From the IMG/VR virus record IMGVR_UViG_3300023176_007743, positions 1 through 52,046 of that record: a DNA stretch of 52,046 nucleotides; one strand, given 5' to 3'. Position numbers and translations under genes: made by a program. Shown in pieces: positions 2 to 52,046 of the stretch (positions are counted from its first letter, which is position 1; the number at the start of each line of letters is the position of its first letter). Under the pieces are notes generated by a model that was not told the DNA's origin, made no database searches, and saw only the letters and a program-made list of their open reading frames with translations. The stretch comes from a virus.

Positions 2-466
2 GTAAGAGAAGTAACAAGTGCGAGAAGAATAGTTCAGAATATGGATGTAGAAGAGTTCAAAGAACAACTAGAAACAATGGAAATGCAAGAAGACTCTCTA
101 GACTCTCTTAGAAAGTCTTTAGAATTTTTAAATTTTGTGTTAAAACACAATCAAAACGAAGAAGTGTTAAGTTTTGCTAAATCTAAACGTAATGAAATAT
201 CTTTAAAAATATTCTGGAAAAAGAGTGAATCTTCAGATAAACATGTCAGAAGGGAAGTTGCTTGGAATAGAAATTCTCCACCTGAAATATTGATGAAATT
301 GAGTGGAGATGATGAGCCTCTTGTCAGACGTGAAGTTGCTTGGAATGAAAATTGTCCACTTGAAGCATTGATAAAATTGGCTAAAGACTTTTATCCGCAT
401 GTTCATGAAGCAGCGAAAGAGAACCCAAGATACCAAGAATACATAAGAAATCAAGAGAACAATTAA
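2..466 (+). CDS. LRV-repeat protein, 5' end outside window
   Basis: The frame is open from the left edge, so the N-terminus is missing; the ATG at 41 has no clear ribosome site and is probably internal. The C-terminal third carries two 26-residue units of the leucine-rich-repeat-variant (LRV) type, with the pattern VRREVAWN, then a Pro-Pro or Cys-Pro turn, then EILMKLSGD. It ends like the repeat protein at 51174-51953 (EAAKENPRYQEY against EAAKNNPRYKQY), so the two are paralogues. LRV units form an alpha-solenoid that usually binds other macromolecules. The stop codon abuts the ATG of the tagged kinase-like gene, implying co-translation. A tag may exist upstream but cannot be seen. The function is unknown and the repeat call is secure. 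Confidence 0.75.
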   Translation, partial: VREVTSARRIVQNMDVEEFKEQLETMEMQEDSLDSLRKSLEFLNFVLKHNQNEEVLSFAKSKRNEISLKIFWKKSESSDKHVRREVAWNRNSPPEILMKLSGDDEPLVRREVAWNENCPLEALIKLAKDFYPHVHEAAKENPRYQEYIRNQENN

Positions 467-1279
467 ATGTCAATTAAAAACATAATCAAAGAAGAAATAC
501 TTAAAGTCTTAAATGAAGGCAAAATATCTGAATACATTAGTCCCTCATTTGAAAATTTTTTGAAAATAACAAAAAAAATTAAAGATTATTATAGTAAATT
601 GCCAGACTCGACAAGGCACGAATTTATTTTGAGAATGTTGCGGGATTATGCTTCAGAAAACTATAAGCATCTTGGTTCTGGTTTTTACAAAACAGTATAT
701 GAAATAAGTGATGAATTTGTATTGAAAATACCTAATATGAGATTTGTAGGAACCGCAGGTCTTGAAGACATCGAGAGTGAAGGGAGAAAAGAAATTCAAG
801 CAAGATTTTCAAGATTAATTCCAAAAGTTTATTACAAAGATGAAGATAATTATTTTATAGTGAGTCAAAAAGTAAACATATTTGATAGTGAAGAAGAAAT
901 AGAATCAGTATTATCTGATTATTTCGAAGACCCTGAATTTTTAAAATTATATGAAGAATACAACAAGCCTTCTAACGATGGATATTCGACATCTACCGCG
1001 ACAAAGTATGAATTTGGTATAGAACTTTTTCTATACCAAATGAGTCGCATATTCAAGGATTTAAAGCCAAAACGCAAATTCAAAAAAACAGAAATTATGA
1101 TGAAACTAAAGAAAATACAATCTAAATATCCAATTATCAATGATTTCATCAATGGCATATATGACTTGCACCAATACGGTTATCACATTAGTGATTTTCA
1201 TTATGAAAACATAGGCTATGTTTTCGACAAAAAAACAAAGAAAATTAGACTTATAGCACTAGATTTAGCAAAGGATTGA
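467..1279 (+). CDS. Tagged protein-kinase-like protein, putative packaged effector
   Basis: The 270-residue protein begins with the recurring tag MSIKNIIKEEILKVLNEG; LNE (15-17) followed by Gly would be a gp21-type cleavage point. The rest has protein-kinase landmarks: a glycine-rich loop LGSGFYKTVY (69-78), a VLK lysine (K87), a catalytic-loop-like ISDFHYEN with D243 and N248, and a DLA at 266-268 in the place of DFG. The usual HRD arginine is absent, as in small-molecule kinases and lipopolysaccharide-kinase-like families. Start ATG 467 directly follows the previous stop. I infer a kinase or kinase-fold effector delivered from the virion; a phosphotransferase acting on small molecules is the main alternative. 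The fold call is fairly sure, the substrate unknown. Confidence 0.68.
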   Translation: MSIKNIIKEEILKVLNEGKISEYISPSFENFLKITKKIKDYYSKLPDSTRHEFILRMLRDYASENYKHLGSGFYKTVYEISDEFVLKIPNMRFVGTAGLEDIESEGRKEIQARFSRLIPKVYYKDEDNYFIVSQKVNIFDSEEEIESVLSDYFEDPEFLKLYEEYNKPSNDGYSTSTATKYEFGIELFLYQMSRIFKDLKPKRKFKKTEIMMKLKKIQSKYPIINDFINGIYDLHQYGYHISDFHYENIGYVFDKKTKKIRLIALDLAKD

Positions 1280-10449: not shown

Positions 10450-10451
10450 TA

Positions 10452-12406: not shown

Positions 12407-12424
12407 ATTAAAAGGGAAACAAAC

Positions 12425-13471: not shown

Positions 13472-13473
13472 GA

Positions 13474-14253: not shown

Positions 14254-14264
14254 CGAGAGAAAAA

Positions 14265-15616: not shown

Positions 15617-15629
15617 ATGAGGTTTTAAA

Positions 15630-15821: not shown

Positions 15822-15824
15822 GAG

Positions 15825-16049: not shown

Positions 16050-16078
16050 TTAATTGCATTATTTTATCTGAGGAAAGC

Positions 16079-16689: not shown

Positions 16690-16691
16690 AT

Positions 16692-28860: not shown

Positions 28861-30663
28861 ATGAGAAATAATGAAAAAAGATTTTTCCCTGTAGATTATA
28901 CGTCTAGAGACCAGCAATCTATAAGAGAAGATTTAGACAACTATGCTAGGAATTATTATGCAAAAATATATAACAATTTCAGTGAGAATAGTTTTGAATC
29001 TTTGGTTTTAGATTTAATTTCATATGAAGCAGATAATTTATCTTTTTATTTGGATTATCAAGCAAACGAAATGTTGCTTGACGGAGCATCAGAGTTTGAA
29101 AATATTCGTCAGATAGGAAAGCAAAAAGGATATAAATATCGAGGCAGACCTTCTTCGTTTGCGATGCAAACTTTTTACGTTATTGTTCCTGCATCTAGCA
29201 CACAAGACGGCCCAGATGTGCTGTATTTTCCGACATTAAAGAGAGGGACAAAAGTGTTGTCGAATAGCGGTGGAGTCTATACTTTGTTAGATGACTTAAC
29301 TTTCACTTTAGATGACGAAATTGTTGTTTCTCAAGTTGATTCTTCTACTGGTTTGCCTACTTTTTATGCAGTAAAAGCAAGGGGAAGAATAATTTCTGGG
29401 GAAACGAAAATTGAACAAATTAATGTTGGTTCGTTTGAAAGATTTTTGAACGTATCGTTTGAGGATGAAGACTTTTCAGAAATAATCTCTGTTTTTGATT
29501 TGCAAGGAAATGAATATTTTGAAGTAGAACATCTAACTCAAAACACAATTTTTAGACCTGTTGCTAATTTTGGTGCAACGAAAAACGAACCTCAATCTTT
29601 ATTAAGACCATTTGCTGTCCCTAGAAGGTTTACTGTTGATTTTGACGACAATGAAATCTTTTTACAGTTTGGAATGGGACAAATCAATAACGCAAGAACA
29701 ATCAATAATCGCTTAGACCCGTCGAATTCTATGATTCAAAAACATGGGAAACAATATATAAGCGATTTTTCGTTTGACCCCACAAATCTTGTAAAAGGCG
29801 ACAAGATGGGTATTGTTCCTACAAACACCACTTTGTTTGTTGCTTACAGAGCAAACACAGACATCACAAGTAATGCTGAAATAGGTGCTATTACTGACAT
29901 AGTAGAGCCTATTGTTGAATTCCAAAATAGAGAACAACTCAATGAAACAACAATTTATGAAATTATAAATTCTTTTGAGACAGAAAATGAAGAGCCTGTT
30001 GTTGGCGAAACATTGGAGTTAACTCAAGAAGAATTAAAAATGCGGATTATGGGCAGTGAATCTTCACAAATGCGAGGTGTTACACCCCAAGACTATGTTT
30101 CTCTTTGCTATAAAATGCCATCAAGATACGGCTCGATTAAAAGGGTCAATGTAGTCACAGACCCTCAGAGCGCAAAACGGAATTTGAATCTTTATATTGT
30201 TTCAGAAGATTCGGAGGGAAACTTTATTCAATCTAACGATGCTATTAAAGAAAATCTAAAGATTTGGCTGAATCATTACAAGATGATTAATGATACTATT
30301 GATATATTAGATGGAAAAATCGTTAACTTTGGAATTGACTATGAAATAACAACTGATATAAATGTTGACAAATATGAAGTTTTAAACGAAGCGTTTATTG
30401 AATTGAGGGATTATTTTGAGATCAAAATGTCAATAGGTGAGTCCATAAATATTACTGAAATATATAAGGTTTTGCGTGATGTAGATGGCTTGGTTGACGT
30501 TTTAAGGTTAGAAATTTTCAATAAGACTTTAGGAAATTATTCTACAACTTATTTAAACATTGATGAACAGATGACAATTGATGGAAGATTTGTTGTTGCT
30601 CCGAAAAATGTTGTTTTTGAGTTGAAATACCCTGAAAGAGACATAAGAGGGTTTGCGAAGTGA
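28861..30663 (+). CDS. 6: Baseplate wedge protein, gp6/baseplate J-like
   Basis: The 600-residue protein begins RFFPVDYTSRDQQSIREDL and ENSFESLVLDLISYEADNLSFYLDYQANE, the hallmark start of gp6/gpJ wedge proteins, and ends with the typical IKMSIGESINITEIYKVLRDVDG core. It would form the inner baseplate ring with gp25. The length is near that of T4 gp6 (about 660). The stop TGA overlaps the GTG start of the tagged ADP-ribosyltransferase-like gene, so the effector is translationally coupled to it. Confidence 0.9.
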   Translation: MRNNEKRFFPVDYTSRDQQSIREDLDNYARNYYAKIYNNFSENSFESLVLDLISYEADNLSFYLDYQANEMLLDGASEFENIRQIGKQKGYKYRGRPSSFAMQTFYVIVPASSTQDGPDVLYFPTLKRGTKVLSNSGGVYTLLDDLTFTLDDEIVVSQVDSSTGLPTFYAVKARGRIISGETKIEQINVGSFERFLNVSFEDEDFSEIISVFDLQGNEYFEVEHLTQNTIFRPVANFGATKNEPQSLLRPFAVPRRFTVDFDDNEIFLQFGMGQINNARTINNRLDPSNSMIQKHGKQYISDFSFDPTNLVKGDKMGIVPTNTTLFVAYRANTDITSNAEIGAITDIVEPIVEFQNREQLNETTIYEIINSFETENEEPVVGETLELTQEELKMRIMGSESSQMRGVTPQDYVSLCYKMPSRYGSIKRVNVVTDPQSAKRNLNLYIVSEDSEGNFIQSNDAIKENLKIWLNHYKMINDTIDILDGKIVNFGIDYEITTDINVDKYEVLNEAFIELRDYFEIKMSIGESINITEIYKVLRDVDGLVDVLRLEIFNKTLGNYSTTYLNIDEQMTIDGRFVVAPKNVVFELKYPERDIRGFAK

Positions 30664-30721
30664 AAAAAAACATAAAGTCATTACTTAAAGAAGAAGTATT
30701 AAAAGTCATAAAAGAATCTAA
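30649..30721 (+). repeat. 73-bp direct repeat, copy 1 (gp6 end plus tag)
   Basis: This stretch covers the last codons of the gp6-like gene, the GTG start and the tag codons of the ADP-ribosyltransferase-like gene. It recurs at 31752-31824 with about four to five mismatches, including the upstream bases TTTGCGAA that are coding here and a leader there. Confidence 0.8.
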
Positions 30722-31745
30722 TGTTTTAATAGGAATTATAGACGACAACTCAAAAAAAATTAGAGATTTATTAATTAAACAATATGAGCCTCAAAGAAAG
30801 TATTATGATGATGCGGAATTCGAATATATGCTTGATAATACACTCGAACAGGAAATTCCAGATATATTTTTCAATGTTGTTTCTTCGAACTTGACAGATG
30901 AACAAATTAGGGAAACTGCTTTGTGGGTGTTAAGTATGATTTTGGAAGAAAATATGCGTGTTGAGGATTGGACAAATATAGATACACTCTCTAGACATAT
31001 AGACGCAGAAGAAGCAATTGAAGAATATTGGAAATATAAAGATGATGCAAATTTGAGTGATTTAAAAGAAATAAAAAATTTTAATCAACTAAATGATATG
31101 CTAGAAAATAAAACAGATGAATTTAGATGGCTTAACGATAAAAAAATTTTTTCAAAATTTTTTGAAAACGAATATGTTGTGGCATATCATTGTGGCTCGA
31201 AGCCACCAAGTGTAGAATTTGAAGTTGGACCGCATTTGTTTTCAGGAGAAGGTGAAGGTATTCTCGGACCTGGAATATATTTTGCCGGTGTTTTTTCAAA
31301 TGAAGAAGAGAGTTTATATTGGAATATGTTCGAAGACACTGCTATGGATTTGGCCATAAAATATTGCAAATACGCTGAAACTCCTTATCTTTACAGGGTG
31401 CGTATAAAAACCAAAGATTTGTATGATAGAATACATGCCAGACCTGAGAAATTACATAAAAAAATACAACAAGCAGTGAGTGAATTGCCAGAAAAAATAA
31501 GATCTTATCATTCAACTATGAGACATGGATATGGAGACTTAGGTCTCATTAATGCTTATAATGTTTTGTTTGGAAAAAGTTGGAAAGAAACATTGAAAAA
31601 ATACAAGGAAATAGGCGTTAAAGGGCAAATTGATTTACTCCCGAAACAGAATGAATATGGAGCGAGAGTTGTAGAAATAGTAGTTTACGACTCATCTATT
31701 ATAGAAAGTGTAGAATATATACCCAGAAACTCGTATAACTATTGA
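30660..31745 (+). CDS. Tagged PARP-like ADP-ribosyltransferase, putative packaged effector
   Basis: The 361-residue protein begins with the tag MKKNIKSLLKEEVLKVIKES; cleavage after IKE (E19, before Ser) is predicted. The C-terminal half has the H-Y-E layout of PARP/diphtheria-toxin-type transferases: VVAYHCGS with H177, GILGPGIYFAG with Y207, and a late ARVVEIVVYDSS offering the Glu. The region between contains AMDLAIKYCKYAE, typical of the donor-loop helix. T4 packages the ADP-ribosyltransferase Alt in its head and cleaves it with gp21, a close functional parallel, though Alt belongs to the R-S-E class. Target and NAD use are inferred. The start GTG overlaps the gp6 stop. Confidence 0.72.
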   Translation: MKKNIKSLLKEEVLKVIKESNVLIGIIDDNSKKIRDLLIKQYEPQRKYYDDAEFEYMLDNTLEQEIPDIFFNVVSSNLTDEQIRETALWVLSMILEENMRVEDWTNIDTLSRHIDAEEAIEEYWKYKDDANLSDLKEIKNFNQLNDMLENKTDEFRWLNDKKIFSKFFENEYVVAYHCGSKPPSVEFEVGPHLFSGEGEGILGPGIYFAGVFSNEEESLYWNMFEDTAMDLAIKYCKYAETPYLYRVRIKTKDLYDRIHARPEKLHKKIQQAVSELPEKIRSYHSTMRHGYGDLGLINAYNVLFGKSWKETLKKYKEIGVKGQIDLLPKQNEYGARVVEIVVYDSSIIESVEYIPRNSYNY

Positions 31746-31751: not shown

Positions 31752-31824
31752 GGATTTGCGAAGTGAAAAAAAACATAAAGGCATTGCTTAAAGAAGAAAT
31801 ATTAAAAGTCATAAAAGAATCTAA
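31752..31824 (+). repeat. 73-bp direct repeat, copy 2 (leader plus tag)
   Basis: This is the second copy of the repeat at 30649-30721, offset by 1103 bases. It carries the ribosome site and the tag codons of the next gene, which indicates that the tag and its translation start were duplicated together. Confidence 0.8.
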
Positions 31825-32422
31825 CCGATGGCGTGACCTGCCGGTAAGTTTACACTCGCATAAATCTCGGTTAGATGAGCCAGACTCGGATTGTTCGAAT
31901 TGTTATGCCTCGCAAGGCGAATATCGCTGGACTCCAATCCCCGAATCTGAACTTTCCAAAAAAACATATTATTGGGTGTCAGAGGGCGATTACACAGGTA
32001 ATTTGGAGTACGGCAAAACTCATGTCCCAGCATCAAAAAAAATATTAGAAAGATTTCCTGAAATTTCGGATGTTTTTGAAAAGGTTAGAAAAGATATTAA
32101 TCCAAATGCTCCCTCTCGCAACAATTGTGCATATGTTTGTGATTCATTAGAAAAAGGGTCATATTGTGCTATGTATGTGGATAGTCCAGAAAGAACCATT
32201 TACGAGGTTAAACTTCATAATCCTCAAAAAATATTTGAAGCAGATGGCGAATGGTGGACGGAAGCAGTATTTAATTCGCCAACAAAGACCGGGCTTGGAG
32301 ATTGGGATGCAGTTCGTCATTATGCAGAGACTTATTGGGAAGGAGTGATAGAGGATTGGGGGATAAAAGAAGTTTTGGTTTACCCTCCAGAATCAGCAAT
32401 AATAGTGGGAAAAGTAAAGTGA
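31763..32422 (+). CDS. Tagged protein, possibly ADP-ribosyltransferase-like
   Basis: The 219-residue protein starts at GTG 31763 (AGAGAGGA upstream) with the tag MKKNIKALLKEEILKVIKES, almost identical to that of its neighbour. The body contains SRNNCAYVCDS, TIYEVKLHN and AVRHYAETYWEG, then IKEVLVYPPESAIIVGKV; this order (Arg, a conserved strand, a helix with Tyr, final strand) is reminiscent of small ADP-ribosyltransferase-fold proteins, but I cannot name catalytic residues with confidence. A toxin-like enzyme delivered with the DNA is the working guess. The stop overlaps the start of the following protease gene. Confidence 0.55.
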   Translation: MKKNIKALLKEEILKVIKESNRWRDLPVSLHSHKSRLDEPDSDCSNCYASQGEYRWTPIPESELSKKTYYWVSEGDYTGNLEYGKTHVPASKKILERFPEISDVFEKVRKDINPNAPSRNNCAYVCDSLEKGSYCAMYVDSPERTIYEVKLHNPQKIFEADGEWWTEAVFNSPTKTGLGDWDAVRHYAETYWEGVIEDWGIKEVLVYPPESAIIVGKVK

Positions 32423-34278
32423 GATTAAAAAAAGAATTAAAGAGACAAATTCTCTTAGAAATGAAGAGTCAAAAAAATATTCATGAAAGCCTAAACCTTT
32501 CGAAAAGAAATATTGACAATTATATCAGAAATTTTGAAGAAAAAATAGCATTGATGACTCCTTTTTTGAACTATTTGATAGAGTCTATGAATAAATTTCA
32601 AAAATTCAAAAAATTGGACCCAGAAAGGTTTGATACAAATGAAAGCATTTTTAGATTTGTGAAGCAACTTGGTAATAATGTATACAACGCCACAAATGTT
32701 TTAGATAGTGAGGACAAAGAAGAAGATTATCTTAATAAATATTTTTATGGTCAAAGAACGGATACATCGCATAATCTGAAGGGTTTATTTGATAGTATAA
32801 CAGATTTCATTATTAGTACTGCAATTTCTAGAGAAGAAGTTAGTGATTTTGACAATAATAATTTAAATATTGTTGTTTTTATGATGAATTTTTATGATTT
32901 TTTGTGGCGTCAAAAGACTCAGTTGAAATTTTATTATGGTTCCGATGTTAGAGGGCGAGGTCTTGAAAGGTTTTTGACAAACTTGTTTGAAGACTTGTTC
33001 CGTATATTTTTTGAAAGTTTTGAAAAAGACAAAGTGATGAAGTCTATTGAAAAATTCATGTACAAACACTTATTTCAAACTAAACAAGAAGACTATGATT
33101 ATGAATATGTACGTTTTCCTCGCGGAACAGAGTTAATACCACGAACAATAGAAGCCTTTGAAGAGAAAAATATATATCATCTATTTGATAATTTAGATTC
33201 CTTTTGTGCATATATGAACGCACTTTGGAGAGAAATCAAAGGATTGGATGAAAAAGAATTAGAAGGAGAAGTTGATTATATAGTAGGTGAATATAAGTCG
33301 ATAATTAATTTAGGACTCGAAAAGGATGCATATCCTTTAGACGATTTTCTTACAGATATAAAAGAAAGTAAAAATAATTTTAAATATTTTTGCAAAAAAA
33401 TAAAACAAATTTGCAGAAAAAATATTAAATTATTTCGTTCGTTAGAGGAGGTTGAAAGAAAATATAATAGTTCAGAAGGTAATGAAAAATACCAAGAAGA
33501 AATGAGTGACTTTTTTAATCGCAGCAAAGTGATGCTTTTTAGAATAAAAATAAAGAAATATTTTTTAAAAGAAGCATACAAAAATTTAACAGACGAAGAA
33601 CGAGAAATTATTTCTCCTGCAACTTATGATTTTGAATACAATACAAGTACTGGAAATAACGTACAAATTCGCGCTTTTTTTAGAAATAAAGAAAAAACAA
33701 AAAAGGGTATCGAATCTATAGAATTATTTTATCGATTAATGAAAGATAGAGGTATAACAGACCATGCGCTTTCTTTGATAAAGACAATACGATTGACTGA
33801 TGTATCAGAAAAGCATCCAACTGGAGGTTTTACGGGGGGTCATTATATCGGTTTTGGTCAGAGCAGAAATTTAATTAGTATCGACGTGAACAATGAATTG
33901 AGTTATCTTGTTCGAGTTTTAGTTCATGAATTTGGACACTTAATTCATCACAATTCTCATCGAGCAGCACAAGGTTTTTGGAGAGACTTTTTACAAGGCG
34001 AAGTGGGGGAAGAACATGTTCCTGAAGAAATGTATGGCTGGGGACAAAAAGAAAAGTTTAAGGATGTAAGTATATTGCCAACTGATTATGCGAGTGAAAA
34101 TTTGTTGGAAGCATTTGCGGAGATATTTGAGAGATACATTATAGACCCTAAGAGTCTTCACTCGGAGGCTATTTATGCAGTAAGAAGGTATTTGTCTTTA
34201 TCTAATTTTTACAACGAAGGTTTAAAAACACGGATACATGAGAACAAAAAAATATTACAGAAGGACCAACATCAGTGA
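32419..34278 (+). CDS. Tagged large zinc metalloprotease
   Basis: The 619-residue protein starts at GTG 32419, which overlaps the previous TGA; the frame is open further upstream but lies inside that gene. The start MRLKKELKRQILLEMKSQ is a divergent tag. The C-terminal 230 residues form a gluzincin-type domain: VLVHEFGHLIHH (H503, E504, H507), then a LLEAFAEIFERYI helix with E564 or E568 as third ligand. The middle 400 residues are helical and charged, without recognised motifs. The protease domain is duplicated in the next gene. It is probably a packaged protease with an unknown host or virion substrate. Confidence 0.72.
   Translation: MRLKKELKRQILLEMKSQKNIHESLNLSKRNIDNYIRNFEEKIALMTPFLNYLIESMNKFQKFKKLDPERFDTNESIFRFVKQLGNNVYNATNVLDSEDKEEDYLNKYFYGQRTDTSHNLKGLFDSITDFIISTAISREEVSDFDNNNLNIVVFMMNFYDFLWRQKTQLKFYYGSDVRGRGLERFLTNLFEDLFRIFFESFEKDKVMKSIEKFMYKHLFQTKQEDYDYEYVRFPRGTELIPRTIEAFEEKNIYHLFDNLDSFCAYMNALWREIKGLDEKELEGEVDYIVGEYKSIINLGLEKDAYPLDDFLTDIKESKNNFKYFCKKIKQICRKNIKLFRSLEEVERKYNSSEGNEKYQEEMSDFFNRSKVMLFRIKIKKYFLKEAYKNLTDEEREIISPATYDFEYNTSTGNNVQIRAFFRNKEKTKKGIESIELFYRLMKDRGITDHALSLIKTIRLTDVSEKHPTGGFTGGHYIGFGQSRNLISIDVNNELSYLVRVLVHEFGHLIHHNSHRAAQGFWRDFLQGEVGEEHVPEEMYGWGQKEKFKDVSILPTDYASENLLEAFAEIFERYIIDPKSLHSEAIYAVRRYLSLSNFYNEGLKTRIHENKKILQKDQHQ
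33589..34250 (+). repeat. Metalloprotease module, direct repeat copy 1
   Basis: About 660 bases encoding the protease domain recur at 35771-36430. Long runs are identical (for instance around 33720-33800 and 34150-34250), while a stretch near 33815-33865 has diverged. The N-terminal parts of the two genes are unrelated or highly divergent. Confidence 0.85.
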
Positions 34279-36443
34279 AAGAAATAATCAAAAAAGAAAT
34301 TCTTAAAATTCTTAAAGAAAACACAAAAAAGACAGAAAGGTCTTTTGAATTTTTTCAACGCTTGAGTGAGAGTGAAGATGCAAAAGTGAGGAAAAATGCT
34401 GCTCAAAATAAAAATTGTCCACCTAAAATATTGCGGAAATTGAGTAGAGATCGCTCATCTGTTGTTAGAAAGGCTGTTGCTACGAACGAAAATTGTCCAC
34501 CTGAAATATTGATAGAGATGGATAGAGATAAAAGCGTTAATGTTAGAAGGGGTCTTGCTAGGAATAGAAATTGTCCACCTGAATCATTGAGTTTGATGGG
34601 TGCTACTGACAAAGATGATGGTGTTAGATTGTTTGTTGCTAAAAATGAGAATGCTTCATATGGGACATTAATAAGATTGTTGCAAGATTCATCTAAAAAG
34701 AGCGATACAATTATAAAAGCAGTACAAAACAATGTAAATTACAAGCGATATGTTAAAATGATTGAGGAAGAAAATTCAAAAGAAAAAATTGATGGATATA
34801 TTGAAGATATTAGCAAAAATATTAACAAAAATTTGAAATTAATCATGAAATTTGTTCGCAATAAAATTTATGATTTTGAAAAAATAAACAAAATATTAGA
34901 AGAAAACATGCTAGAAGGTGATGTTGTAGATTTTTTTCATTCGGCTGAAAAAATCTTGAAACAAGCAAACAAAGGATATTACAAAGAAACGCCCACCATT
35001 ATTGTAACACATGATAGATACATTATAGGAGTTGAAGATTTGAAGAAAAAAATTACATCCTTTATAAGCACATATATAAAACATTTTCGGGGTGAATATA
35101 ATATTTTAGAATTTATGTCCATGATGGATAGATATATGTATCAATTATTGGAGTATTTTGAGTATGACCGTAAAGATGACAATATCAGTGCAATAGTGGC
35201 GAAACATTTTAAACAACAAGTCTATAGTTTGTTTGTCCAAAGATTACCTCGCAGAGAAATTGTACGTTATTTGAAAAACTATATGTTTGATTATATTTTT
35301 CGTTCTGAGTATGATTATGAATCATCTGAGTTACAACAAATAGGAAAAGGAAGTTTATTTGAACGTTTTGATTATGTTGTTGGAATCTTAAGTTCTATAG
35401 AGAATGGAAAAATCGATTTATCCAGACTTATTGAATTTGTTCGTCCTGATAGTAGTTTCGTTGGCAAAGATGATGATTCATACTATGTTTATGATAAAAT
35501 AACGCAGGAAAACAATGAGTTTGAATTTGTTGATAGTTTTATATTTCATATAGAAAATGAATATGATTATTTTGAAAGAGAATTACAATTTATTTTAGAT
35601 GAATATGACAATCCATATTCGTCGAATGATTATTCTTTTTTGCGTAGAAGACTTGTTGAAATGGGTCAGAGTATAGATTTATTTTCACATCACAAACTTG
35701 ATATTGATTTACTGGAGTGGTGCAAAGAACGAGTTCGCAAAATGCCTGAAATGTTTGTATTCAGACACTTGACAGACGAAGAACGAGAAATTATTTCTCT
35801 TGAAACTTATGATTTCGAACATACTACAAGTACTGGAAATAACTTACAAATTCACCTTTTTGCTAGAAGTGAAGAAAAAATAAAAAAGGGTATCGAAGCT
35901 ATAGAATTATTTTATCGATTAATGAAGGATAGAGGTATAACAGACCATGCACTTTCTTTGATAAAGACAATACGATTGACTGATGTAAGAAAGAAGGTTC
36001 GAGGAAATCTTGCGGGAGGTTATTATGACCCTAGACTTTCGAGAAGAAATTTAATTAGTGTCGATGTGAACAACGAATTGAGTCGTCTTGTTCGAGTTTT
36101 AGTTCATGAATTTGGACACTTAATTCATTACAATTCTCACCCAACAGCACAAGGTTTTTGGAGAGACTTTTTGCAAGGCGAAGCAGGGGAAGAACATGTT
36201 CCTGAAAAAATGTATGGCTGGGGAGAAAAAGAAAAATTTAAGGATGTAAGTGTATTACCAACTGATTATGCGAGTACAAATTTAAAGGAAGCATTTGCGG
36301 AGATATTTGAGGAATATATTATAGACCCTAAGAGTCTTCACTCGGAGGCTATTTATGCAGTAAGAAGGTATTTGTCTTTATCTAATTTTTACAACGAAGG
36401 TTTAAAAACACGGATACATGAGAACAAAAAACAATGGCGATAA
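34275..36443 (+). CDS. Tagged LRV-repeat zinc metalloprotease
   Basis: The 722-residue protein begins with GTG 34275, overlapping the previous TGA, and the tag MKEIIKKEILKILKENTKK (ILKE before Asn). Residues about 30-140 hold four LRV-type units (VRKNAAQNKNCPPKILRKL and following), kin to those in the proteins at the two window ends. A helical middle of about 350 residues follows, then a gluzincin domain with VLVHEFGHLIHY (H611, E612, H615) and the LKEAFAEIFEEYI helix, about 85 percent like that of the upstream gene by eye. The repeats may choose the target and the protease cut it; that is inference. Its end overlaps the next structural gene by ten bases. Confidence 0.74.
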   Translation: MKEIIKKEILKILKENTKKTERSFEFFQRLSESEDAKVRKNAAQNKNCPPKILRKLSRDRSSVVRKAVATNENCPPEILIEMDRDKSVNVRRGLARNRNCPPESLSLMGATDKDDGVRLFVAKNENASYGTLIRLLQDSSKKSDTIIKAVQNNVNYKRYVKMIEEENSKEKIDGYIEDISKNINKNLKLIMKFVRNKIYDFEKINKILEENMLEGDVVDFFHSAEKILKQANKGYYKETPTIIVTHDRYIIGVEDLKKKITSFISTYIKHFRGEYNILEFMSMMDRYMYQLLEYFEYDRKDDNISAIVAKHFKQQVYSLFVQRLPRREIVRYLKNYMFDYIFRSEYDYESSELQQIGKGSLFERFDYVVGILSSIENGKIDLSRLIEFVRPDSSFVGKDDDSYYVYDKITQENNEFEFVDSFIFHIENEYDYFERELQFILDEYDNPYSSNDYSFLRRRLVEMGQSIDLFSHHKLDIDLLEWCKERVRKMPEMFVFRHLTDEEREIISLETYDFEHTTSTGNNLQIHLFARSEEKIKKGIEAIELFYRLMKDRGITDHALSLIKTIRLTDVRKKVRGNLAGGYYDPRLSRRNLISVDVNNELSRLVRVLVHEFGHLIHYNSHPTAQGFWRDFLQGEAGEEHVPEKMYGWGEKEKFKDVSVLPTDYASTNLKEAFAEIFEEYIIDPKSLHSEAIYAVRRYLSLSNFYNEGLKTRIHENKKQWR
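35771..36430 (+). repeat. Metalloprotease module, direct repeat copy 2
   Basis: This is the partner of the module at 33589-34250, about 2180 bases downstream. Both copies end at the same codons (NEGLKTRIHENKK), so the duplicated unit stops close to the 3' end of each gene. Confidence 0.85.
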
Positions 36444-44000: not shown

Positions 44001-46552
44001 TAAGTGGGGCGTTAGTGTCGGATGCTATGCCTTCTTTTGTTTATGATTATCCGACAGCATCACTTCAGTACGCTTATTTGCCTAATATTGGAAAATTCAC
44101 TGAATATAATTGGCCTTATGATGTATTTAAACAGTCTGGCAAGCGTCCTTGGTACGATTCCTACGAGGAATATGCAAAAGACATAACAGTCCTTGGCAAA
44201 GGCTATTCAACTCTAGCAGAATTTAAAATATCTAATCATATAGAAGATTATATTAAAAGTGGATTTTTTCAAGAAAACAAAAATTGGCTTTCCAATCAAG
44301 GCTCTTATGTTAGTCAGAGTGCTGAATCGTCTACAGGCTCTTATATTGAAGATTTTTTTGAACAATACACCAATTCTGACTTAATGAAACATTTTGAGAA
44401 ATTTATTGAAGACCATCGTAGTGTAAATGGGGAAATAAAGCATTTGACTTTGACATGTGATGTTGTAAAGAAGATGCTCCCTTACAATGGGTTTTATCCA
44501 ATCAATAGAACTACTCAACTTGGCAGTTTGTTCTCTCAATCGTTAGCCCCTTATATTTCCGGGTCAAATTACGAAACAGACAGTGGTGCTGCAAGAGCGT
44601 TACAGTCGGCATTACAACCTTATTTTGCACCTGGGATTGTTTTTAACACGATAAAGTCTGGAATAGCGGTTGATTGGCCATATTTTACAGGTTCATCTGA
44701 TTATTTGGAAAACTTGTGGCAAAATGATGGTGGCAAAAGTTTGTCTAGTGGTACACCACCAAGTCCTTTTTGTTTGTATATATCATCATCTGGTCCAGAA
44801 TTAGGAATTACTGCCACTGACGATTGGAAGTGTTACTTATTGTCGTCTTCTTTTGATTCGACGGATGGAAATGCAGGGAAATTTCATGGGAGACTCGCTT
44901 TCGAATCACTTGTAAACTTAGAAAAGTCGCTACTGAAAGAAAAAAATATATTTTTAATGGCTCCAGACAAAATTAATCAATCTAGTGGAAGTGCAAACTC
45001 GGAATATCCTTATTTTTCATGGAGTGGCGAGAAAAAACCATTTTTTGAAATGGCTATGCACAACTTCTTGGCAGAAGTTCCTAATTTTTTCCTTAAAAAC
45101 AAAAATTTGACATCTTTTGTCTCAAAACCAGAAAAAAACTTTCAGCCTTTGGTAAAAGATGTTACATATTATATGGATGTTGTGCTGAAAAAAACTAACG
45201 ATTTCAATATGATTGCAAGTCATCACAGTTCTTCTATTCCTTCTGGTTCTACATCAGCGTTAGCAGTAACATGGGGGGATGAACAATCTTATCATGGAAG
45301 GTATTTTGGTCCACCTTCGTACAAATTTACTAGAGGCGACACACCAGGGTATGGTAGTAATTACAATTCGGATATTTCAACCGACCAACTTGACGTAAGA
45401 GCAACAAATATGGGAGACCCAGCCTATGCTCCCTTTACTCCTCCTTATTTTTATGGAGAGTCGCGAATAAGATTATCCTTCCAGCCATCAGAAACTAGAA
45501 AATACTCTATTGATGAGATTTTTTCAAATGCATTGGCAAGTAGTTCTAATCAGATTGCTTTGGACGGGGTGGACGAATTTTTGCCTTTTGCTCAAAATAA
45601 CGTTATGACGCTAGAATCTTCAGTAAATCTATTCGAGAAAGAAAATTCTTTGATTTCTGGGGATTCCACCGGACTTGATTCTTGGAAAATAGTGCCAAAG
45701 TTTGAATGTCCAACTTTGAATTTTACGGAAGAATCGTTAGATGTGGGAGGTCAAGATTCTGGTTATCAAACTGCTAGTTTGGCTAGAGGAATGTGGGGTA
45801 CATATGGAAGTTTACCAACAGGCTCAGAAGGCATATATTTCAGTCTAGAAGAAAGTTTTCCTCAAGTTTTGAATGCAAACTTAAACGATTCAGACACAAT
45901 TGGCTCTCTCATTCAAGTTTGTGGTTTTACGGCAGCGCAGAAAAGAATTGGAGAGATAAACGATAAAACTAAAATTTACGAAGCGATAATTGCGATTCCT
46001 TATGTTGAAAGAGAGTTAAAAGATGGTGTTAACATTGCGAATAGAAACTTTTTTAGATTAAAAGAAGAAGAAATAGAAAAAGACTCTAGTATTGATTACA
46101 TGATGAACAAAGTTAAAGATTATTATCTCCCACCTTTCATGGACTTTACGAATCCAAACAGCGAAGTCAATCCTTTTGTATTCTATATTTTTGAATTTGA
46201 GGAAGAATTGGACAAGCAAGATTTGGCTGATATTTGGCAGGGAGTCATGCCTAAGCCAGCAACAAGAGCAACAAAACAAAAGGTGACGTTAAAGCACCCT
46301 ATTAGCCAATCTGAGATGTTTTTTGACCACACCCTACCCTCTGATATGCGCTGGTTAATTTTTAAGGTTAAAAGGCGTGCTAGAAAGAATTATTTTCAAT
46401 TATTTGACAAATCAAAAGAGAAAGGCTTGGAATCTGATGTAGATACTTTGATAAAAGATTATAATTACAATTGGCCATATGATTTCTTTTCACTTGTTGA
46501 ATTGGCGAAATTTGATGTTGAATGGGCGATAGGAAAAAAAGATGAAGAATGA
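38024..46552 (+). CDS. Giant baseplate protein with LamG-like domain, 2842 residues
   Basis: The gene covers 8.5 kb. Residues about 165-400 form a LamG/concanavalin-like jelly roll (ITVEFWYKKE, WNHYAFTF, SKLYINGKLDDTK, ASLDEFRFWKVERTEEEI), a fold that often binds carbohydrate. At about 565-610 is IYQNIYNNLPQIYKQKGTKESF followed by RNLLRCFGVD, a motif found in large phage structural proteins. Much of the rest is Ser/Thr/Tyr/Asn-rich and beta-like, and the C-terminus (LPSDMRWLIFKVKRRARKNY) looks conserved. The position corresponds to T4 gp7 (1032 residues), but it is almost three times longer. I take it as a wedge or peripheral baseplate protein. Confidence 0.72.
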   Translation: MKNKTYYETGKKVESSKFIENFIKNSRKYIPPVDYSTASNFVRYGLAEQYYEDSIKRIYKTYPYDGSRAEKEEWKSDSSPLDIYLYDNLYPRTNGYISIGNNWGTQEFIASGYGAPSTASYEYIQIKGGPNLGFDLSGDRETQKKAKNIFKNSNKYDESKKRQSNLEFNTTGTYSGSNNGITVEFWYKKESFVSTFTDKEVIFDLWNGQSTTSNDYGRLTIETDNTAAASPFRITVASGAIGVQYQTIGVTPTHSSVGGGTWNHYAFTFRTVDGDLESKLYINGKLDDTKTYAGQGIQKVTGSLIANIGALRTAPQGTTGPVEGHGKMHSASLDEFRFWKVERTEEEIERYWNTHVGGGSNTDDETTTLGVYYKFNEGITQTSSIDSLVLDYSGRVSNGSWVGYEQSLTPRSTDSAIVESGYSISEYKDPIVYSFHPNVLSFLSEMTNAGYEHDLENNASLWSNIPDWIVEEDSSKGTGDLKKLTQIMASSLDYTYLLIENLTKYRNINYPSEKNKPIPFVKELLSNMDFETHKMFDEATVIETFLNKGREGNYEDDVSEIKNIIYQNIYNNLPQIYKQKGTKESFRNLLRCFGVDSELMKLNVYSDGEEYTFKDNFDFSSKPRNLVNFYYPDHLGGTVFQTTASGDTINTRSFISASSVLAKNDYTPFTVETEFVFPKKFDQVDRNFIQTNFISSSLFGFYPALSSDQNVLTWQTPNTASIQVYAVKEELYSKRAKFVLTGTVVDEFPVLTSSYYPDIYDDEKWNFSVSIRHNKYPYTSYVSGTKLSNEGSYILEFFGVNTTLDVVPKIGNQEKSFYLTASLTYDQGQSMLRSDKRIYAGAHRTNFTGSILYNTDVCLSSVRAWLEYLPTSSVINHSKYNDSYGIKGLFEGAGTYDENFDNIFVPKSETLLFDWYFSSNTGSDSSGEFFVYDETSGSAEQAGRYGEYGTRIGIRHPGRGYGFTSNSDDAFKLNYLPTLKRTLPESLSSANMIEILDENTEVRTKETRPSKYIFRFEKSMYQNISEDMINYLDTIVEFNNLIGEPVNRYRKSYKKLDKLRHLYFSKVENEPDLERFLEFYKWIDSAVVKMLSQMLPASTKTPERIANTVESHVFERNKFQHKFPFLEIKTSTTGNIKGHKPYQWKDYHAPIGLSEEENGLWWNKKSKLDTNIWNLNADVESNRLAIGRIQDEKTNRNEKNPYFYSLSRTKELGGGVNFNSQKRFVYVDVLHPNGPLYQNLLVVSGAFLEEPRSKYNTKQKDAAYHPIKTKKYKFSVYSNKGNISGSGKELAPFTIVSSSVSGVLAGNNSKNLAIANYHHDQYGREKPFQGPFTEEHVGGYQWRHIALNTGSNLDDRSNRPEKFGGIVDGTEFLLVPSDYESTNNPPASWSRDGLVKRYLNVKNIKTLTTRRVLGNFNKNYQVVSTTGRTDNNIYFRRNMGISGTNIVSSSLASNLINYGVARRDLTGSLSVFAVRFNAPGGLETSNGFLDVEANELSVYNSLNWRNWRNRTQLNEFWNSASYQYGIDNVASPVSASEHKMHRNTFYRIEKSGSSFVTASVNNTFLFTNSIPSSDLNYTWIRKTATTASGNPINNQNVPFRYSVGSTHDNKHRSITFVSQSDFGSYKNLFSGIRYFGLPNPYVPAAEFIPVDYVNLNTIIYEPITSSTNTLGYPSLVATDIDGDNIFTANYINKVITPGDGTEETQNTTGIPGLASILQAINCHRNGAGGWEVWKQTRIANHPVARHMRRNNIFSVAKTPTQNLLQGDNFIPIKPYEFENYIESCVDNNNYPLQVLLEISGNVISLNNSYSNVVNAFAEEKLNIDAVNREKYTKYQDLFDLYGNPDSLYRDNFIELRYKESVFPTKKYINISRNRRRTFFLESGGYGHNGFDRNVYQRTNYWPDTIERTDIDGATPFKNAVDYRWGRSVYPFGNSRIWHKIEDTAYIPILEIRERIKTGSYDGELSNFTTSSVTNFPYVDANVQGMLGSGQSYLSGALVSDAMPSFVYDYPTASLQYAYLPNIGKFTEYNWPYDVFKQSGKRPWYDSYEEYAKDITVLGKGYSTLAEFKISNHIEDYIKSGFFQENKNWLSNQGSYVSQSAESSTGSYIEDFFEQYTNSDLMKHFEKFIEDHRSVNGEIKHLTLTCDVVKKMLPYNGFYPINRTTQLGSLFSQSLAPYISGSNYETDSGAARALQSALQPYFAPGIVFNTIKSGIAVDWPYFTGSSDYLENLWQNDGGKSLSSGTPPSPFCLYISSSGPELGITATDDWKCYLLSSSFDSTDGNAGKFHGRLAFESLVNLEKSLLKEKNIFLMAPDKINQSSGSANSEYPYFSWSGEKKPFFEMAMHNFLAEVPNFFLKNKNLTSFVSKPEKNFQPLVKDVTYYMDVVLKKTNDFNMIASHHSSSIPSGSTSALAVTWGDEQSYHGRYFGPPSYKFTRGDTPGYGSNYNSDISTDQLDVRATNMGDPAYAPFTPPYFYGESRIRLSFQPSETRKYSIDEIFSNALASSSNQIALDGVDEFLPFAQNNVMTLESSVNLFEKENSLISGDSTGLDSWKIVPKFECPTLNFTEESLDVGGQDSGYQTASLARGMWGTYGSLPTGSEGIYFSLEESFPQVLNANLNDSDTIGSLIQVCGFTAAQKRIGEINDKTKIYEAIIAIPYVERELKDGVNIANRNFFRLKEEEIEKDSSIDYMMNKVKDYYLPPFMDFTNPNSEVNPFVFYIFEFEEELDKQDLADIWQGVMPKPATRATKQKVTLKHPISQSEMFFDHTLPSDMRWLIFKVKRRARKNYFQLFDKSKEKGLESDVDTLIKDYNYNWPYDFFSLVELAKFDVEWAIGKKDEE

Positions 46553-47234
46553 TAATATAAACTCGGTAATGTCATTGTTTGAATCAATTAAAAAAGAAAT
46601 ATTAAAAGAAATTGGCCCCGATTACGAATACGAACCAATTAGTCCAGAAGAAATTGAATTGGACAAGAATCGTGGTAATTTTTATTTTGGGAGAAACGTT
46701 GACTGGTTAGGATATAAGGGAAGAATGTTTCGTGCAACACCTTATAATTGTTATCCAATAGAAGGCAACATTTTTTATGAAGAGAAATTAGAGCGTGTTG
46801 CTGACTTAATAATTCACGGAGAAGAAAGATTTACATTTTATGCGCCATATGGAATGTTGAGTAAAGTAGACTACATTGATGTTAAAGAGTCATTATACAA
46901 TGACGAAGATGTTTTGACAACTGGCGATGAAGAAGTGGATGAATATTTGAAACTTGATTGGGAAGAGTATGTGGATGAACATTTATATTATTTAGACCCA
47001 TTGGATGACGAAGAAGAGATAGAAAATATTCAAGAAGATCTTCAGAATAGACTAGAAAATGCGGTTGAAAATAACGAAGGAGACCTTGGAAGTTGGAGGT
47101 GTCAAGTTCGAGATGGAAATCATCGAACATTTGGAGCATTTAAGGCAGGCGAACCGTATGTTTGGATTATAATTTCTGAAGACCAAATCGAAGATAATAA
47201 AAATAATCCAGAATTTATGAAGCAGTTACATTAA
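46542..47234 (+). CDS. Tagged DGNHR (ParB/sulfiredoxin-like) protein
   Basis: The 230-residue protein overlaps the giant gene by 11 bases; TAGGA lies eight bases before ATG 46542. After nine residues comes a tag-like MSLFESIKKEILKEIGPD. The C-terminal part has WRCQVRDGNHRTFGAFKAGEPYVW; DGNHR followed by a helix is the phosphate-binding signature of the ParB/sulfiredoxin-like fold. The middle is very acidic (DDEEEIENIQEDLQ). Such folds bind nucleotides and can be nucleases or ATP-using enzymes. Its place inside the late structural block and its tag suggest another packaged cargo. Confidence 0.58.
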   Translation: MKNDNINSVMSLFESIKKEILKEIGPDYEYEPISPEEIELDKNRGNFYFGRNVDWLGYKGRMFRATPYNCYPIEGNIFYEEKLERVADLIIHGEERFTFYAPYGMLSKVDYIDVKESLYNDEDVLTTGDEEVDEYLKLDWEEYVDEHLYYLDPLDDEEEIENIQEDLQNRLENAVENNEGDLGSWRCQVRDGNHRTFGAFKAGEPYVWIIISEDQIEDNKNNPEFMKQLH

Positions 47235-47248
47235 AGAGTATTAAGGTA

Positions 47249-48196
47249 ATGAATTTTTTTGATAAAAAAGAAGATGTTTTGGAATTGGAATTGACTCCGC
47301 ATGGCAGAAATAAACTGGCGAAGGGAGAATTTCGCCCAACTTACTACGCTTTTTTTGATGACGACATCATCTACGATGTAGAACACATGGGGCTAGAAGA
47401 AACACAAAACGCTTCTCAAAAAAGAATATTGGAATCTATTGTGACAAAACCCTTTGTGTCTTTTTCAAATAGACAAAGTGGAAGTTTAGATATTGCACAA
47501 TATGACCAACATTACGCTTATTTTTCTCACTTAGGCACAACAAAAGAAGTGCAAGAAGAACCTGGGTGGGAGATTCGCTTTTTAGAGGGAAAAATATCAT
47601 CCTCAGCAGATTTTTTAACAGGTGCGCTAGGTGACATTAGAATTCCTCAAATAGAATTGGAAGATTTATTTATAAAAACAAAAGTAGTGTTTCCGAGTCA
47701 ACTAGAAAATCCTGAATTTCCTGAATTTCACGGAGAATTGTCTGAAAATTGCGAACAAGAAGAAGAATTTCAGTTTGAAGACGGAAGTGAATACGAATTA
47801 GAAGTCGAACCTTTAATTTTAGAATTATATGAAAACAACGTAAAAATAGATAAAAGCAATTTTACTATAGAATTGTTTGAAGTAGAAGGTGACAGACTGA
47901 AACAGTTAAGATTTTTCAAGGAACCACAACGCATTGTAAATGATATTTTATTGGATGACGATGAGATTGAGGAGATTGACGTAGAAAGTATAGAAAATAC
48001 AGATGTAGAGTATTATTTTGACATAGAAGTGGATGATGAAATAGACTCTCCCATGATAGATGAAAGAATGAGCGGAAAAGATAGATATAATAATTCAACG
48101 ACATCTAAAAAATCTAAAGAAACAAAAAATAACAATAAATTTCCAGACATTTATGTCTTTGACGAATTGGAAGAAGATGACGAATGCCAACAATAA
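47249..48196 (+). CDS. Tail/baseplate structural protein
   Basis: The 315-residue protein begins NFFDKKEDVLELELTPHGRNKLAKG and PTYYAFFDDDIIYD, a start I associate with a structural protein of marine T4-like phages that follows the gp7-like gene. The middle is beta-rich and the second half is extremely acidic (LLDDDEIEEIDVESIEN), ending in a Ser/Lys/Asn-rich linker. AAGG lies six bases before the ATG. Its ATG-proximal neighbour and overlap with the next gene support one operon. Not assigned to a T4 number. Confidence 0.6.
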   Translation: MNFFDKKEDVLELELTPHGRNKLAKGEFRPTYYAFFDDDIIYDVEHMGLEETQNASQKRILESIVTKPFVSFSNRQSGSLDIAQYDQHYAYFSHLGTTKEVQEEPGWEIRFLEGKISSSADFLTGALGDIRIPQIELEDLFIKTKVVFPSQLENPEFPEFHGELSENCEQEEEFQFEDGSEYELEVEPLILELYENNVKIDKSNFTIELFEVEGDRLKQLRFFKEPQRIVNDILLDDDEIEEIDVESIENTDVEYYFDIEVDDEIDSPMIDERMSGKDRYNNSTTSKKSKETKNNNKFPDIYVFDELEEDDECQQ

Positions 48197-50523: not shown

Positions 50524-50527
50524 GAAA

Positions 50528-51211
50528 ATGAAAAAAATTTTAAAAAATTGGAAGAAATTCCTAAATGAATCTCGAAATTTAGAAGAGGCTCGTTTTGACC
50601 CAACTGATCTCCCCCCAGAGCCAGAAAGTGTAGTAGATCGATATTACTCAACAAAAGGAGTAAAAGATCCGGCAGAGAGGAAGCGCATAAAAAATGCGAG
50701 AAAATGGTATGACAAACAAACGAGAGACCGCCGATATTCAGTTGGTTCTTCTAGACTTACAAATGACCCTAGATTTGAAGAAGGTCGGAGGTATGAACTC
50801 TCAATGCATCCAGATCCAGAAGTCAGATTGGGTCTCGTCAAAAATCTATCCACACCAGACTACATTCTCATACAAATGTACGAAAATGAAATGACACTTC
50901 AAAAGCAGGCACTACAGAGAAGAAAAAGTATGGACCCCGAAAGGCCACCGATGTCTCATGGTGAAATTAGAGGCTCACAAGATGTTATGCTTGCAATCGC
51001 GCAGAGAAACCCAGCAAATTTAGAACTCAGTGGGCTATTTAATCGTTCAGATATAAAAAGAGACCTAGCCAAAATGAGAGCCTGGAAATCTAGACAAAGG
51101 TCTGCTGAAGAAAAATCAAGAAAGAATGTTGATGAACTTGATTCAATAATGGAACGGAAAAAAAAACGAAAAAATGTCAATAAAAAAAATAATCAAAGAA
51201 GAAATTCTTAG
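50528..51211 (+). CDS. Tagged basic protein with degenerate LRV-like unit
   Basis: The 227-residue protein starts at ATG 50528 with MKKILKNWKKFLNESRNLEE, a tag variant in which FLNE before Ser fits gp21-type cleavage; the frame is open upstream into the previous gene, but this start has the tag. Around residue 100 is HPDPEVRLGLVKNLSTPDYI, resembling one LRV unit. The rest is Arg/Lys-rich. The last 13 or so residues are read in another frame from the tag DNA of the next gene, which begins 38 bases before this stop. No known family. Confidence 0.6.
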   Translation: MKKILKNWKKFLNESRNLEEARFDPTDLPPEPESVVDRYYSTKGVKDPAERKRIKNARKWYDKQTRDRRYSVGSSRLTNDPRFEEGRRYELSMHPDPEVRLGLVKNLSTPDYILIQMYENEMTLQKQALQRRKSMDPERPPMSHGEIRGSQDVMLAIAQRNPANLELSGLFNRSDIKRDLAKMRAWKSRQRSAEEKSRKNVDELDSIMERKKKRKNVNKKNNQRRNS

Positions 51212-51239
51212 AATACTCAAAGAAAGTGTAGAAGAAGCG
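51174..51239 (+). repeat. 66-bp tag repeat, copy 1
   Basis: The first 66 bases of the LRV gene, coding the whole tag and a few further residues, are identical by eye to 51976-52041. The bases just before the ATG (ACGAAAAAA) are also nearly the same in both places. Confidence 0.88.
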
Positions 51240-51953
51240 AAATATTATCGCACAACCCCAGAGAGACTTGCTGAGTTGAGTGAGCATGATGATTATAAAG
51301 TCAGAAAGGTTGTTGCTCGTAATTTCAATTGTCCACCTGAAATATTGATAAAATTGAGTGGAGATAAAAATGATGAAGTCAGAATGGGAGTTGCTTATAA
51401 TTTATATTGTCCACCTGAAATATTGATAAAATTGAGTGGAGATACAAATGATGAAGTCAGACATTTTGTTGCTCAGAATTTAAATTGTCCACCTGAAATA
51501 TTGATAAAATTGAGTGGAGATACAGAAGTAATTGTCAGATCGGGAGTTGCTAGGAATAGATATTCTCCACCTAAAATATTGTGGAAATTGCATAGAGATC
51601 GCTCATCTGTTGTTAGAACTAGTGTTGCTTGGAATATAAATTGTCCACCTGAAATATTGATAAAATTGAGTGGAGATGAAGATGATGATGTCAGATCTGG
51701 TGTTGCTTATAATCAAAATTGTCCACCTGAAATATTGATAAAATTGAGTGGAGATACAGATGAACTTGTCAGAAAGAATGTTGCTAAGAACGAAAATACT
51801 CCACTTGAAGCATTGTTAATCTTAATTAAAGACCCAGAGCCGAAAGTTCGTGAAGCAGCGAAAAACAATCCAAGGTACAAACAATATTCAGAAGATGTAG
51901 ATAGAGCAGAATTCAAGGCGAGAGATGAACTAGAAGATGCATTGTTTGACTAA
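51174..51953 (+). CDS. Tagged LRV-repeat protein, eight units
   Basis: The 259-residue protein has the tag MSIKKIIKEEILRILKESVE (ILKE before Ser), then eight 26-residue LRV-type units from about residue 29 to 236. The typical unit reads CPPEILIKLSGD, a variable DxD-like turn, then VRxxVAxN. Units 1, 5 and 8 are divergent; the others are nearly identical. The C-terminus is a charged helix (VDRAEFKARDELEDALFD). It should form a curved alpha-solenoid for binding a partner and has no catalytic motif. Its start lies within the end of the previous gene, and another copy of the same gene type starts 22 bases downstream. Confidence 0.82.
   Translation: MSIKKIIKEEILRILKESVEEAKYYRTTPERLAELSEHDDYKVRKVVARNFNCPPEILIKLSGDKNDEVRMGVAYNLYCPPEILIKLSGDTNDEVRHFVAQNLNCPPEILIKLSGDTEVIVRSGVARNRYSPPKILWKLHRDRSSVVRTSVAWNINCPPEILIKLSGDEDDDVRSGVAYNQNCPPEILIKLSGDTDELVRKNVAKNENTPLEALLILIKDPEPKVREAAKNNPRYKQYSEDVDRAEFKARDELEDALFD
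51330..51755 (+). repeat. 78-bp tandem coding repeats (LRV units)
   Basis: A near-identical 36-base block beginning TGTCCACCTGAAATATTGAT occurs at 51330, 51408, 51486, 51642 and 51720, always in steps of 78 bases (one 26-residue unit); the copy expected at 51564 has diverged. Coding repeats this similar at the DNA level can expand or contract by recombination. Confidence 0.9.
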
Positions 51954-51975
51954 TCTTTAAGGAAAAACGAAAAAA

Positions 51976-52041
51976 ATGTCAATAAAAAAAATAATCAAAG
52001 AAGAAATTCTTAGAATACTCAAAGAAAGTGTAGAAGAAGCG
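51976..52041 (+). repeat. 66-bp tag repeat, copy 2
   Basis: This is the second copy of 51174-51239, 802 bases downstream. The two copies flank exactly one gene, as expected from tandem duplication of a tagged gene. Confidence 0.88.
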
Positions 52042-52046
52042 GAAGA
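51976..52046 (+). CDS. Tagged protein, 3' end outside window
   Basis: Only 23 codons are visible, encoding MSIKKIIKEEILRILKESVE followed by EAEE at the right edge. The tag is identical to that of the preceding gene, so this is very probably a further member of the tagged family and perhaps another LRV protein. It starts 22 bases after the previous stop. Confidence 0.7.
   Translation, partial: MSIKKIIKEEILRILKESVEEAE

Follow-up and report, generated by a model that had tools for sequence, protein, structure and literature searches.

The exact repeat at the end of the viral contig analysed here is probably best explained, as a whole, as the 5′ end of a gene duplicated in tandem within a phage of the T4 superfamily, in which a capsid-targeting tag precedes exchangeable cargo. 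The two genes, A and B, owe most of their differences to a few variable codons in their leucine-rich-variant (LRV) repeats. About 20 genes of this phage bear related N-terminal tags over mostly unrelated cargo, and several of the tagged genes separate core tail genes that stand next to one another in relatives.

The duplicated gene and its age

The stretch of DNA that was analysed (the window) is a whole IMG/VR record of 52,046 bp, which ends 5 bases past the second copy of the repeat. The first-pass annotation had described a 66-bp identity between 51174-51239 and 51976-52041, with a repeat protein between the copies. Both observations hold: the exact match, which starts 5 bases upstream of both start codons, is 71 bp long, and the repeat protein is encoded by gene A. 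The copies are spaced 802 bp from start to start. When a 51-base core was searched with up to three mismatches allowed, only these two places in the window were found, and none of 100 shuffles contained a match. The features of the locus are as follows.

51169..51239, + strand: repeat copy 1, the last 5 bases before the start codon and the 22 tag codons of gene A; identical to copy 2
51174..51224, + strand: predicted targeting propeptide, residues 1-17, ending in LKE before S18; L/I-x-E motif as in T4 gp21 substrates, putative cleavage
51174..51953, + strand: gene A, 259 aa, with tag, LRV solenoid and C-terminal helix
51252..51812, + strand: LRV repeat array of 26-residue repeats (78-bp units)
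51954..51975, + strand: intergenic stretch TCTTTAAGGAAAAACGAAAAAA, recurring after gene B with one extra A
51971..52041, + strand: repeat copy 2, 5 bases and the 22 tag codons of gene B; runs on as a complete gene in a second contig, G001
51976..52046, + strand: first 23 codons of gene B; the full gene of 234 aa is at 10803-11507 of L007

An exact search of IMG/VR returned one further contig with both copies, IMGVR_UViG_3300023116_000053 (57,698 bp, G001). It overlaps positions 40256-52046 of the window with 9 mismatches and no gap in 11,791 bp (99.92%), and the two contigs represent nearly the same phage. None of the 9 mismatches falls in gene A; three of them cluster in a 12-base stretch of the large tail gene (window 43148-43159). 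Both repeat copies are present in G001 with the spacing seen in the window. The sequence beyond position 52046, where the first-pass annotation had proposed to look for more copies, carries the complete gene B followed by an unrelated gene of 971 aa, Y. The same annotation had named an assembly artefact, the joining of two similar reads, as a possible source of the repeat. The window does end where an assembler could break at a repeat, but G001 spans A, B and Y with equal spacing, which rules out such a join with very little doubt left.

Genes A and B each consist of a 22-aa N-terminal tag and an LRV solenoid and can be aligned from end to end, B being one 26-residue repeat shorter. As the intergenic stretch also recurs, the duplicated unit is the whole gene with its spacer. 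The tandem duplication proposed from the tags thus stands, but it extends well beyond them. Gene duplication in itself is ordinary.

Identity at silent sites had been taken as a sign of a very recent event, an argument that did not survive a count of the sites by the Nei-Gojobori method. The tags of A and B comprise 12.5 silent and 53.5 nonsynonymous sites without a change, and outside the tag 16% of nonsynonymous and 8.6% of silent sites differ. Were silent divergence in the tag equal to that found elsewhere in the gene (0.086), the tag would be expected to carry 1.07 silent changes, and the probability of finding none is 0.33. The silent identity of the tags therefore does not date the duplication; descent together with protein constraint on the tag suffices. 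By region, pS and pN are 0.093 and 0.181 in the repeat array and 0.034 and 0.046 in the C-terminal tail, where A and B show 6 differences over 138 nt. With all sites taken together, conservation is stronger in the tag than in the remainder of the gene (P 2.5e-5), and barely stronger than in the C-terminal tail (P 0.05). The first-pass annotation had also considered that a coding requirement might fix the bases of the tag. This is ruled out because different codons encode these residues in further tags of this phage (51174 vs 467; 51174 vs 34275; genes are given by their first base and listed below).

The LRV solenoid as cargo

Gene A matches the Pfam LRV family with an E-value of 2.2e-27 (94 bits, cut-off 21.6). 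Its AlphaFold2 model has a mean pLDDT of 93.4, with 92-98 in blocks of the solenoid and 71-77 in those of the tag, which is modelled as a separate helix. Searched against the PDB, the model gives the LRV protein 1lrv as its best match (E 2.8e-8); compared with that protein, the LRV array here is tagged, phage-encoded and duplicated. The alphaRep structures 4zv6, 6bzx and 4xl5 also match. These artificial HEAT-like binders have a similar fold and, in the part of the source cited, a constant frame with variable positions (PMC3754942), whereas the array here is natural and is built from 26-residue units.

Across the 11 repeat units of the two genes, the eight most variable codons, chosen as such, differ at 54% of bases and the other 18 at 8%. 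The changes affect all three codon positions of the variable codons, and codons for the same residue are spelled differently in only 4%. Positions 15, 18, 19 and 22 lie in the second helix of each repeat at one-turn spacings, with helix boundaries taken from the model, which suggests that they form one exposed face. We compared the variable positions with those of other LRV arrays; of nine other stretches given, three (L057, L061 and L054) had the required four units. L057 and L061 share with gene A 6 and 7 of their 8 most variable positions, and L054 shares 4 of 8. A pattern special to this phage is ruled out by the largely identical columns of L057 and L061, and the variable columns are a property of the LRV repeat family.

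Silent variation in the gene A array is 0.04, compared with 0.11-0.32 in the three other arrays. As it is so low, the array seems to have been expanded recently or to be homogenised. Unit A4 shares 26 bp, four variable codons included, with a unit of gene 34275 at a distance of 17 kb, so that LRV units do move between loci. Diversification of the variable codons by a retroelement was considered and rejected: all three codon positions vary, and a reverse transcriptase (PF00078) was found in none of 6 records, all of them partial.

The only sequence relatives of gene A are its counterpart in G001, within IMG/VR, and a protein of one Moorella phage at 35%. An LRV match was obtained in 2 of 14 phage records, namely the window and G001, and in none of the other 12, so that the LRV cargo looks particular to this phage among the records tested. 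LRV proteins at other phage loci (for instance L044, L045, L048 and L052) also have tag-like N-termini such as MNIQHTIKEELRLFLEGK. Titles and abstract openings on LRV and phage brought up nothing that looked relevant. We read A and B as predicted binders with a variable surface; that their target is a host defence protein is a guess by analogy to IPI of T4.

Tags and cargo as exchangeable modules

The tag is not confined to A and B. We built a profile from 13 tags, 11 of this phage and 2 from other LRV phages, and applied it, with a threshold of 5 bits, to the genes of eight phage sequences. It matched 37 of 669 N-termini, a count that includes the seed sequences and counts genes in the overlap of window and G001 twice. 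The controls gave matches in 3 of 669 C-termini and 7 of 3345 shuffled N-termini, and none in 411 internal stretches. Sixteen of the matches are among 566 genes of the six other phage sequences; two of these, in G005, have the look of chance matches, being located at least 20 residues from the protein start. Flavobacterium phage immuto has a single tag-like gene, which neighbours its baseplate genes. A scan of IMG/VR for one common form of the tag returned at least 153 places in at least 120 loci. Helical amphipathicity was not significant in 6 of 7 tags and was dropped as a proof of the tag. Among titles and abstract openings we found no paper naming this tag family, although a text search is blind to sequence. 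Tag-like helices such as MKLTKAKIKQIIREELRGLV are also seen at the C-terminus of some phage proteins (L056 5367-5942, L048 1122-3065, L063 7177-9264); T4 Alt is cut at its C-terminus as well, according to the passage cited (PMC9026906).

Several of the tagged genes are found in the tail operon, where comparison with relatives exposes them as additions. Eight core tail genes are colinear in four related phages (G002, G003, G004 and G005). In these, a single gene, 1-36 bp from Y in all four, separates the homologs of Y and of a 315-aa gene, and otherwise nothing lies between core genes save at one junction. Three of the four have the second half of the large gene as one gene between the 315-aa and the large gene. 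The gene between Y and the 315-aa gene in the relatives was equated with the 779-aa gene of this phage by position only, with no similarity in blastp. The phage of the window carries nine extra genes at four of the seven junctions: 30660, 31763, 32419 and 34275 at one, 46542 at another, X, A and B at a third, and 16312 of G001rc at the fourth. Seven of the nine score at least 14 bits with the tag profile and G001rc 16312 scores 6.1 bits; X has another type of tag, recognised by eye. Between the 315-aa gene and Y, this phage has the gene of that position plus X, A and B, and the place of A and B is empty in the four relatives. Gene X overlaps the first 38 bases of gene A, where its last codons, stop included, come from tag DNA in a different reading frame; this overlap may be the scar of an earlier exchange at the repeat. 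Further genes to which the text refers are as follows.

41..466, + strand: untagged LRV gene sharing repeat DNA with gene A
467..1279, + strand: tagged gene, its tag having 92% identity with the gene A tag over 39 nt; match to a PHROG 'kinase' with E 1.8e-6
30660..31745, + strand: tagged gene; start region shared with 31763, cargo without similarity
31763..32422, + strand: tagged gene with DUF2441-like cargo (24 bits, Pfam cut-off 25)
32419..34278, + strand: tagged gene with metallopeptidase-like cargo (HEFGH motif, by eye, no family match); homologous to 34275, different tag
34275..36443, + strand: tagged gene with tag, LRV repeats and metallopeptidase-like cargo (HEFGH motif, by eye)
46542..47234, + strand: tagged gene between the large tail gene and the 315-aa gene, inserted relative to the relatives
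50528..51211, + strand: gene X, with the other tag type MKKILKNWKKFLNES, by eye and missed by the tag profile; last codons from the tag DNA of gene A in another frame

Most cargo gave no family match. One C5 methylase scored above the Pfam cut-off, and Tpt1/ART-like and other matches fell below it. The methylase-like gene (G001rc 41996-42970) adjoins the capsid protein gene and starts with MKLIMENWRKYMNEQ, like the tag of gene X. Elsewhere in the window (7593-17675) is a run of genes that by eye resemble genes for sugar transfer and nucleotide sugars, like those annotated in Flavobacterium phage immuto.

Nine pairs of tags have DNA in common. Four of these pairs are adjacent genes, A and B included, and in the other three adjacent pairs the cargo is unrelated: the start regions of 30660/31763 are 94.7% identical over 76 nt and those of G001rc 47127/49010 are 92.8% identical over 139 nt, of which 60 precede the start, in both cases with no cargo similarity outside the tag; 24511/25571 have 29 nt of tag DNA in common and no cargo similarity. 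The remaining five pairs connect the tags of 467, 34275, A and B. Conversely, homologous cargo can bear different tags, as in 32419 and 34275 (40% over 675 columns, E 1.6e-124) and in 45761 and 47127 (31%, E 3e-57). As neighbours share tag DNA over unrelated cargo and related cargo bears different tags, tag and cargo have been recombined. The 3′ parts of 32419 and 34275 (33576-34160 and 35759-36340) are 89-91% identical DNA in two blocks, with the proteins overall at about 40%, which suggests partial conversion or duplication. In G003 (L079, 142559-144781 of the record), five small tagged genes are clustered; 7 of their 10 tag pairs share 34-49 nt at 83-98%, and by eye the cargo differs.

The same is seen in the wider family. 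Among the matches listed, 36 within-locus tag pairs from 23 loci average 90% DNA identity compared with 81% between loci, and cargo is similar in 0 of the 36. Codons for the same residue agree, again among the matches listed, in 77% of cases within loci (47% predicted by codon usage) and in 58% between loci (43% predicted). This excess of agreement within a locus is what would be expected if ongoing gene conversion between neighbouring tags, and not descent with protein constraint, upheld the identity of the A and B tags, and the 26 bp shared by A4 and the unit of 34275 argue that sequence does move between loci. However, at 12.5 silent sites identity is expected from descent alone often enough (P = 0.33, as above), and the C-terminal tail and the intergenic stretch are also nearly common to A and B. 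We therefore treat conversion as a possible but lesser explanation, and keep to descent with constraint.

A role of the tag DNA as a recombination handle is plausible. The first-pass annotation had seen in the repeat a ready substrate for deletion or amplification of the gene, and as a class this is supported by adjacent genes in which common tag DNA precedes unrelated cargo. The window and G001, however, have the same arrangement where they overlap, and no variant in copy number was observed.

Capsid targeting as the probable role of the tag

T4 packs IPI-III and Alt by means of an N-terminal capsid targeting sequence (CTS), and gp21 cuts after L/I-x-E; the propeptides of IPII and IPIII are identical (PMC9026906, PMC3012670, PMC7411985, in the passages cited). 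The tags here are likewise short N-terminal sequences on otherwise unrelated proteins, and they end in the L/I-x-E of gp21 cleavage (PMC9026906, PMC7411985, as excerpted), those of A and B reading LKE|S. Moreover, the adjacent T4 genes ipII and ipIII share their first 32 nt and then diverge, as adjacent tagged genes do here. The differences are that the tag is about 17 residues long instead of 10, that about 20 genes bear it instead of four, many of them between tail genes, and that the tag profile gave no match to T4 ipI, ipII or ipIII. In its apparent working the tag thus resembles the T4 CTS, while its sequence shows no match to the three T4 proteins compared. In phiKZ and SPN3US, too, a gp21-like protease removes N-terminal propeptides from ejected head proteins, cutting behind a short motif that has Glu as its last residue (PMC7411985, PMC9026906, in the sections cited), but the propeptides of SPN3US are about 110-130 residues long and their motif is AxE (PMC7411985, same section).

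The motif [LIM]xE[ASGNQ] was found in residues 9-30 of 17 of 22 tagged and 10 of 73 untagged proteins (2000 shuffles: mean 3.2, maximum 9), and in 1-3 of 20 in five internal windows. These four residues were fixed after the tags had been seen; the 22 include several paralogs, some proteins called tagged by eye, and one core head-module gene that is not cargo (G001rc 36659). The MKITKxxLKxIIKEEL family was found without use of the motif, and among its matches listed 35 of 137 have the motif in residues 17-28 (shuffles: mean 11.9, maximum 23), the other 102 lacking the strict form in this window; two later windows of the same proteins have it in 4 and 7 of 137. The looser [LIMVF]xE peaks at residues 19-20 among the matches listed, directly after the conserved stretch.

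A suitable protease is also encoded. The S77 prohead protease was detected in 5 of 11 records searched, including G001 (E 2.8e-31), with no match in the window itself. The gp23-like capsid protein of G001 has LLKE|AS in its N-terminal region, kept in the 3 homologs found among the relatives, and from its position we infer that this is the cut site of the capsid protein. These two proteins on G001, together with a homolog of a phage baseplate wedge protein, place the phage in the T4 superfamily. Of the 21 tag-bearing contigs larger than 50 kb among the matches listed, 20 were searched with the S77 model that matches in G001, and 13 had a match; the 7 without one may be fragments. None of 16 control contigs larger than 40 kb, chosen by an arbitrary 14-mer and on average shorter, had a match. 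S77 marks T4-like phages generally, and the association alone does not prove the function of the tag. Given the L/I-x-E ending of the tag, the S77 protease of the phage and the LKE|A site of its capsid protein, the mode of action of the tag most likely resembles that of the T4 CTS.

It could instead be a helix of late proteins with another task, such as docking to tail or baseplate, oligomerisation or membrane contact, with L/I-x-E a by-product of its Glu-rich composition. Many tagged genes do lie inside the tail operon, the T4 propeptides go unmatched by the profile, and L/I-x-E is short and in its tested form absent from 5 of the 22 tags. But a by-product of composition would not be expected to exceed every same-residue shuffle in two sets or to peak just past the conserved stretch of the wider family, and both the sharing of tags by proteins with unrelated cargo and the distribution of S77 over tag-bearing and control contigs speak for targeting. 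Another task is thus unlikely, and we prefer a capsid-targeting tag.

If the tag is such a signal, it would act as a propeptide that binds the prohead core and carries the cargo in; the S77 protease would then cut it off after L/I-x-E, and the cargo would be injected with the DNA. The solenoid cargo of A and B would be a binder whose surface is variable and whose target is most likely a protein of host defence or regulation. The duplication would let two binders diverge, and the repeated tag DNA would provide the homology through which cargo is gained, lost and swapped. A review has suggested, in the passage cited, that the CTS offers T4-like phages an evolutionary route to the uptake of various proteins (PMC9026906). 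The cargo classes may also be like those of phage polyvalent proteins and packaged ARTs and metallopeptidases in the part of PMC5512222 cited, given ART-like matches below the cut-off and metallopeptidase-like genes recognised by eye; the same part places Alt-type ARTs near baseplate genes in T4-like phages. Polyvalent proteins are giant and multidomain, whereas here mostly single cargo domains follow a short tag.

The A/B locus offers a concrete, testable case of tag-mediated cargo exchange, and the pair catches two binder-like proteins that diverge mainly in a few variable codons per repeat. More broadly, we lean slightly towards the view that the N-terminal tag (K/R)xxIIKEE(I/L)xxxLxE is a widespread capsid-targeting signal of uncultured T4-superfamily phages, which would mark hundreds of packed and injected proteins, with its DNA a handle for swapping cargo and LRV binders one cargo class. 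If the tag is indeed a capsid targeting signal, N-termini could be used to catalogue injected phage proteins, such as anti-defence factors and host-modifying enzymes, in metagenomes, with no need for cultivation.
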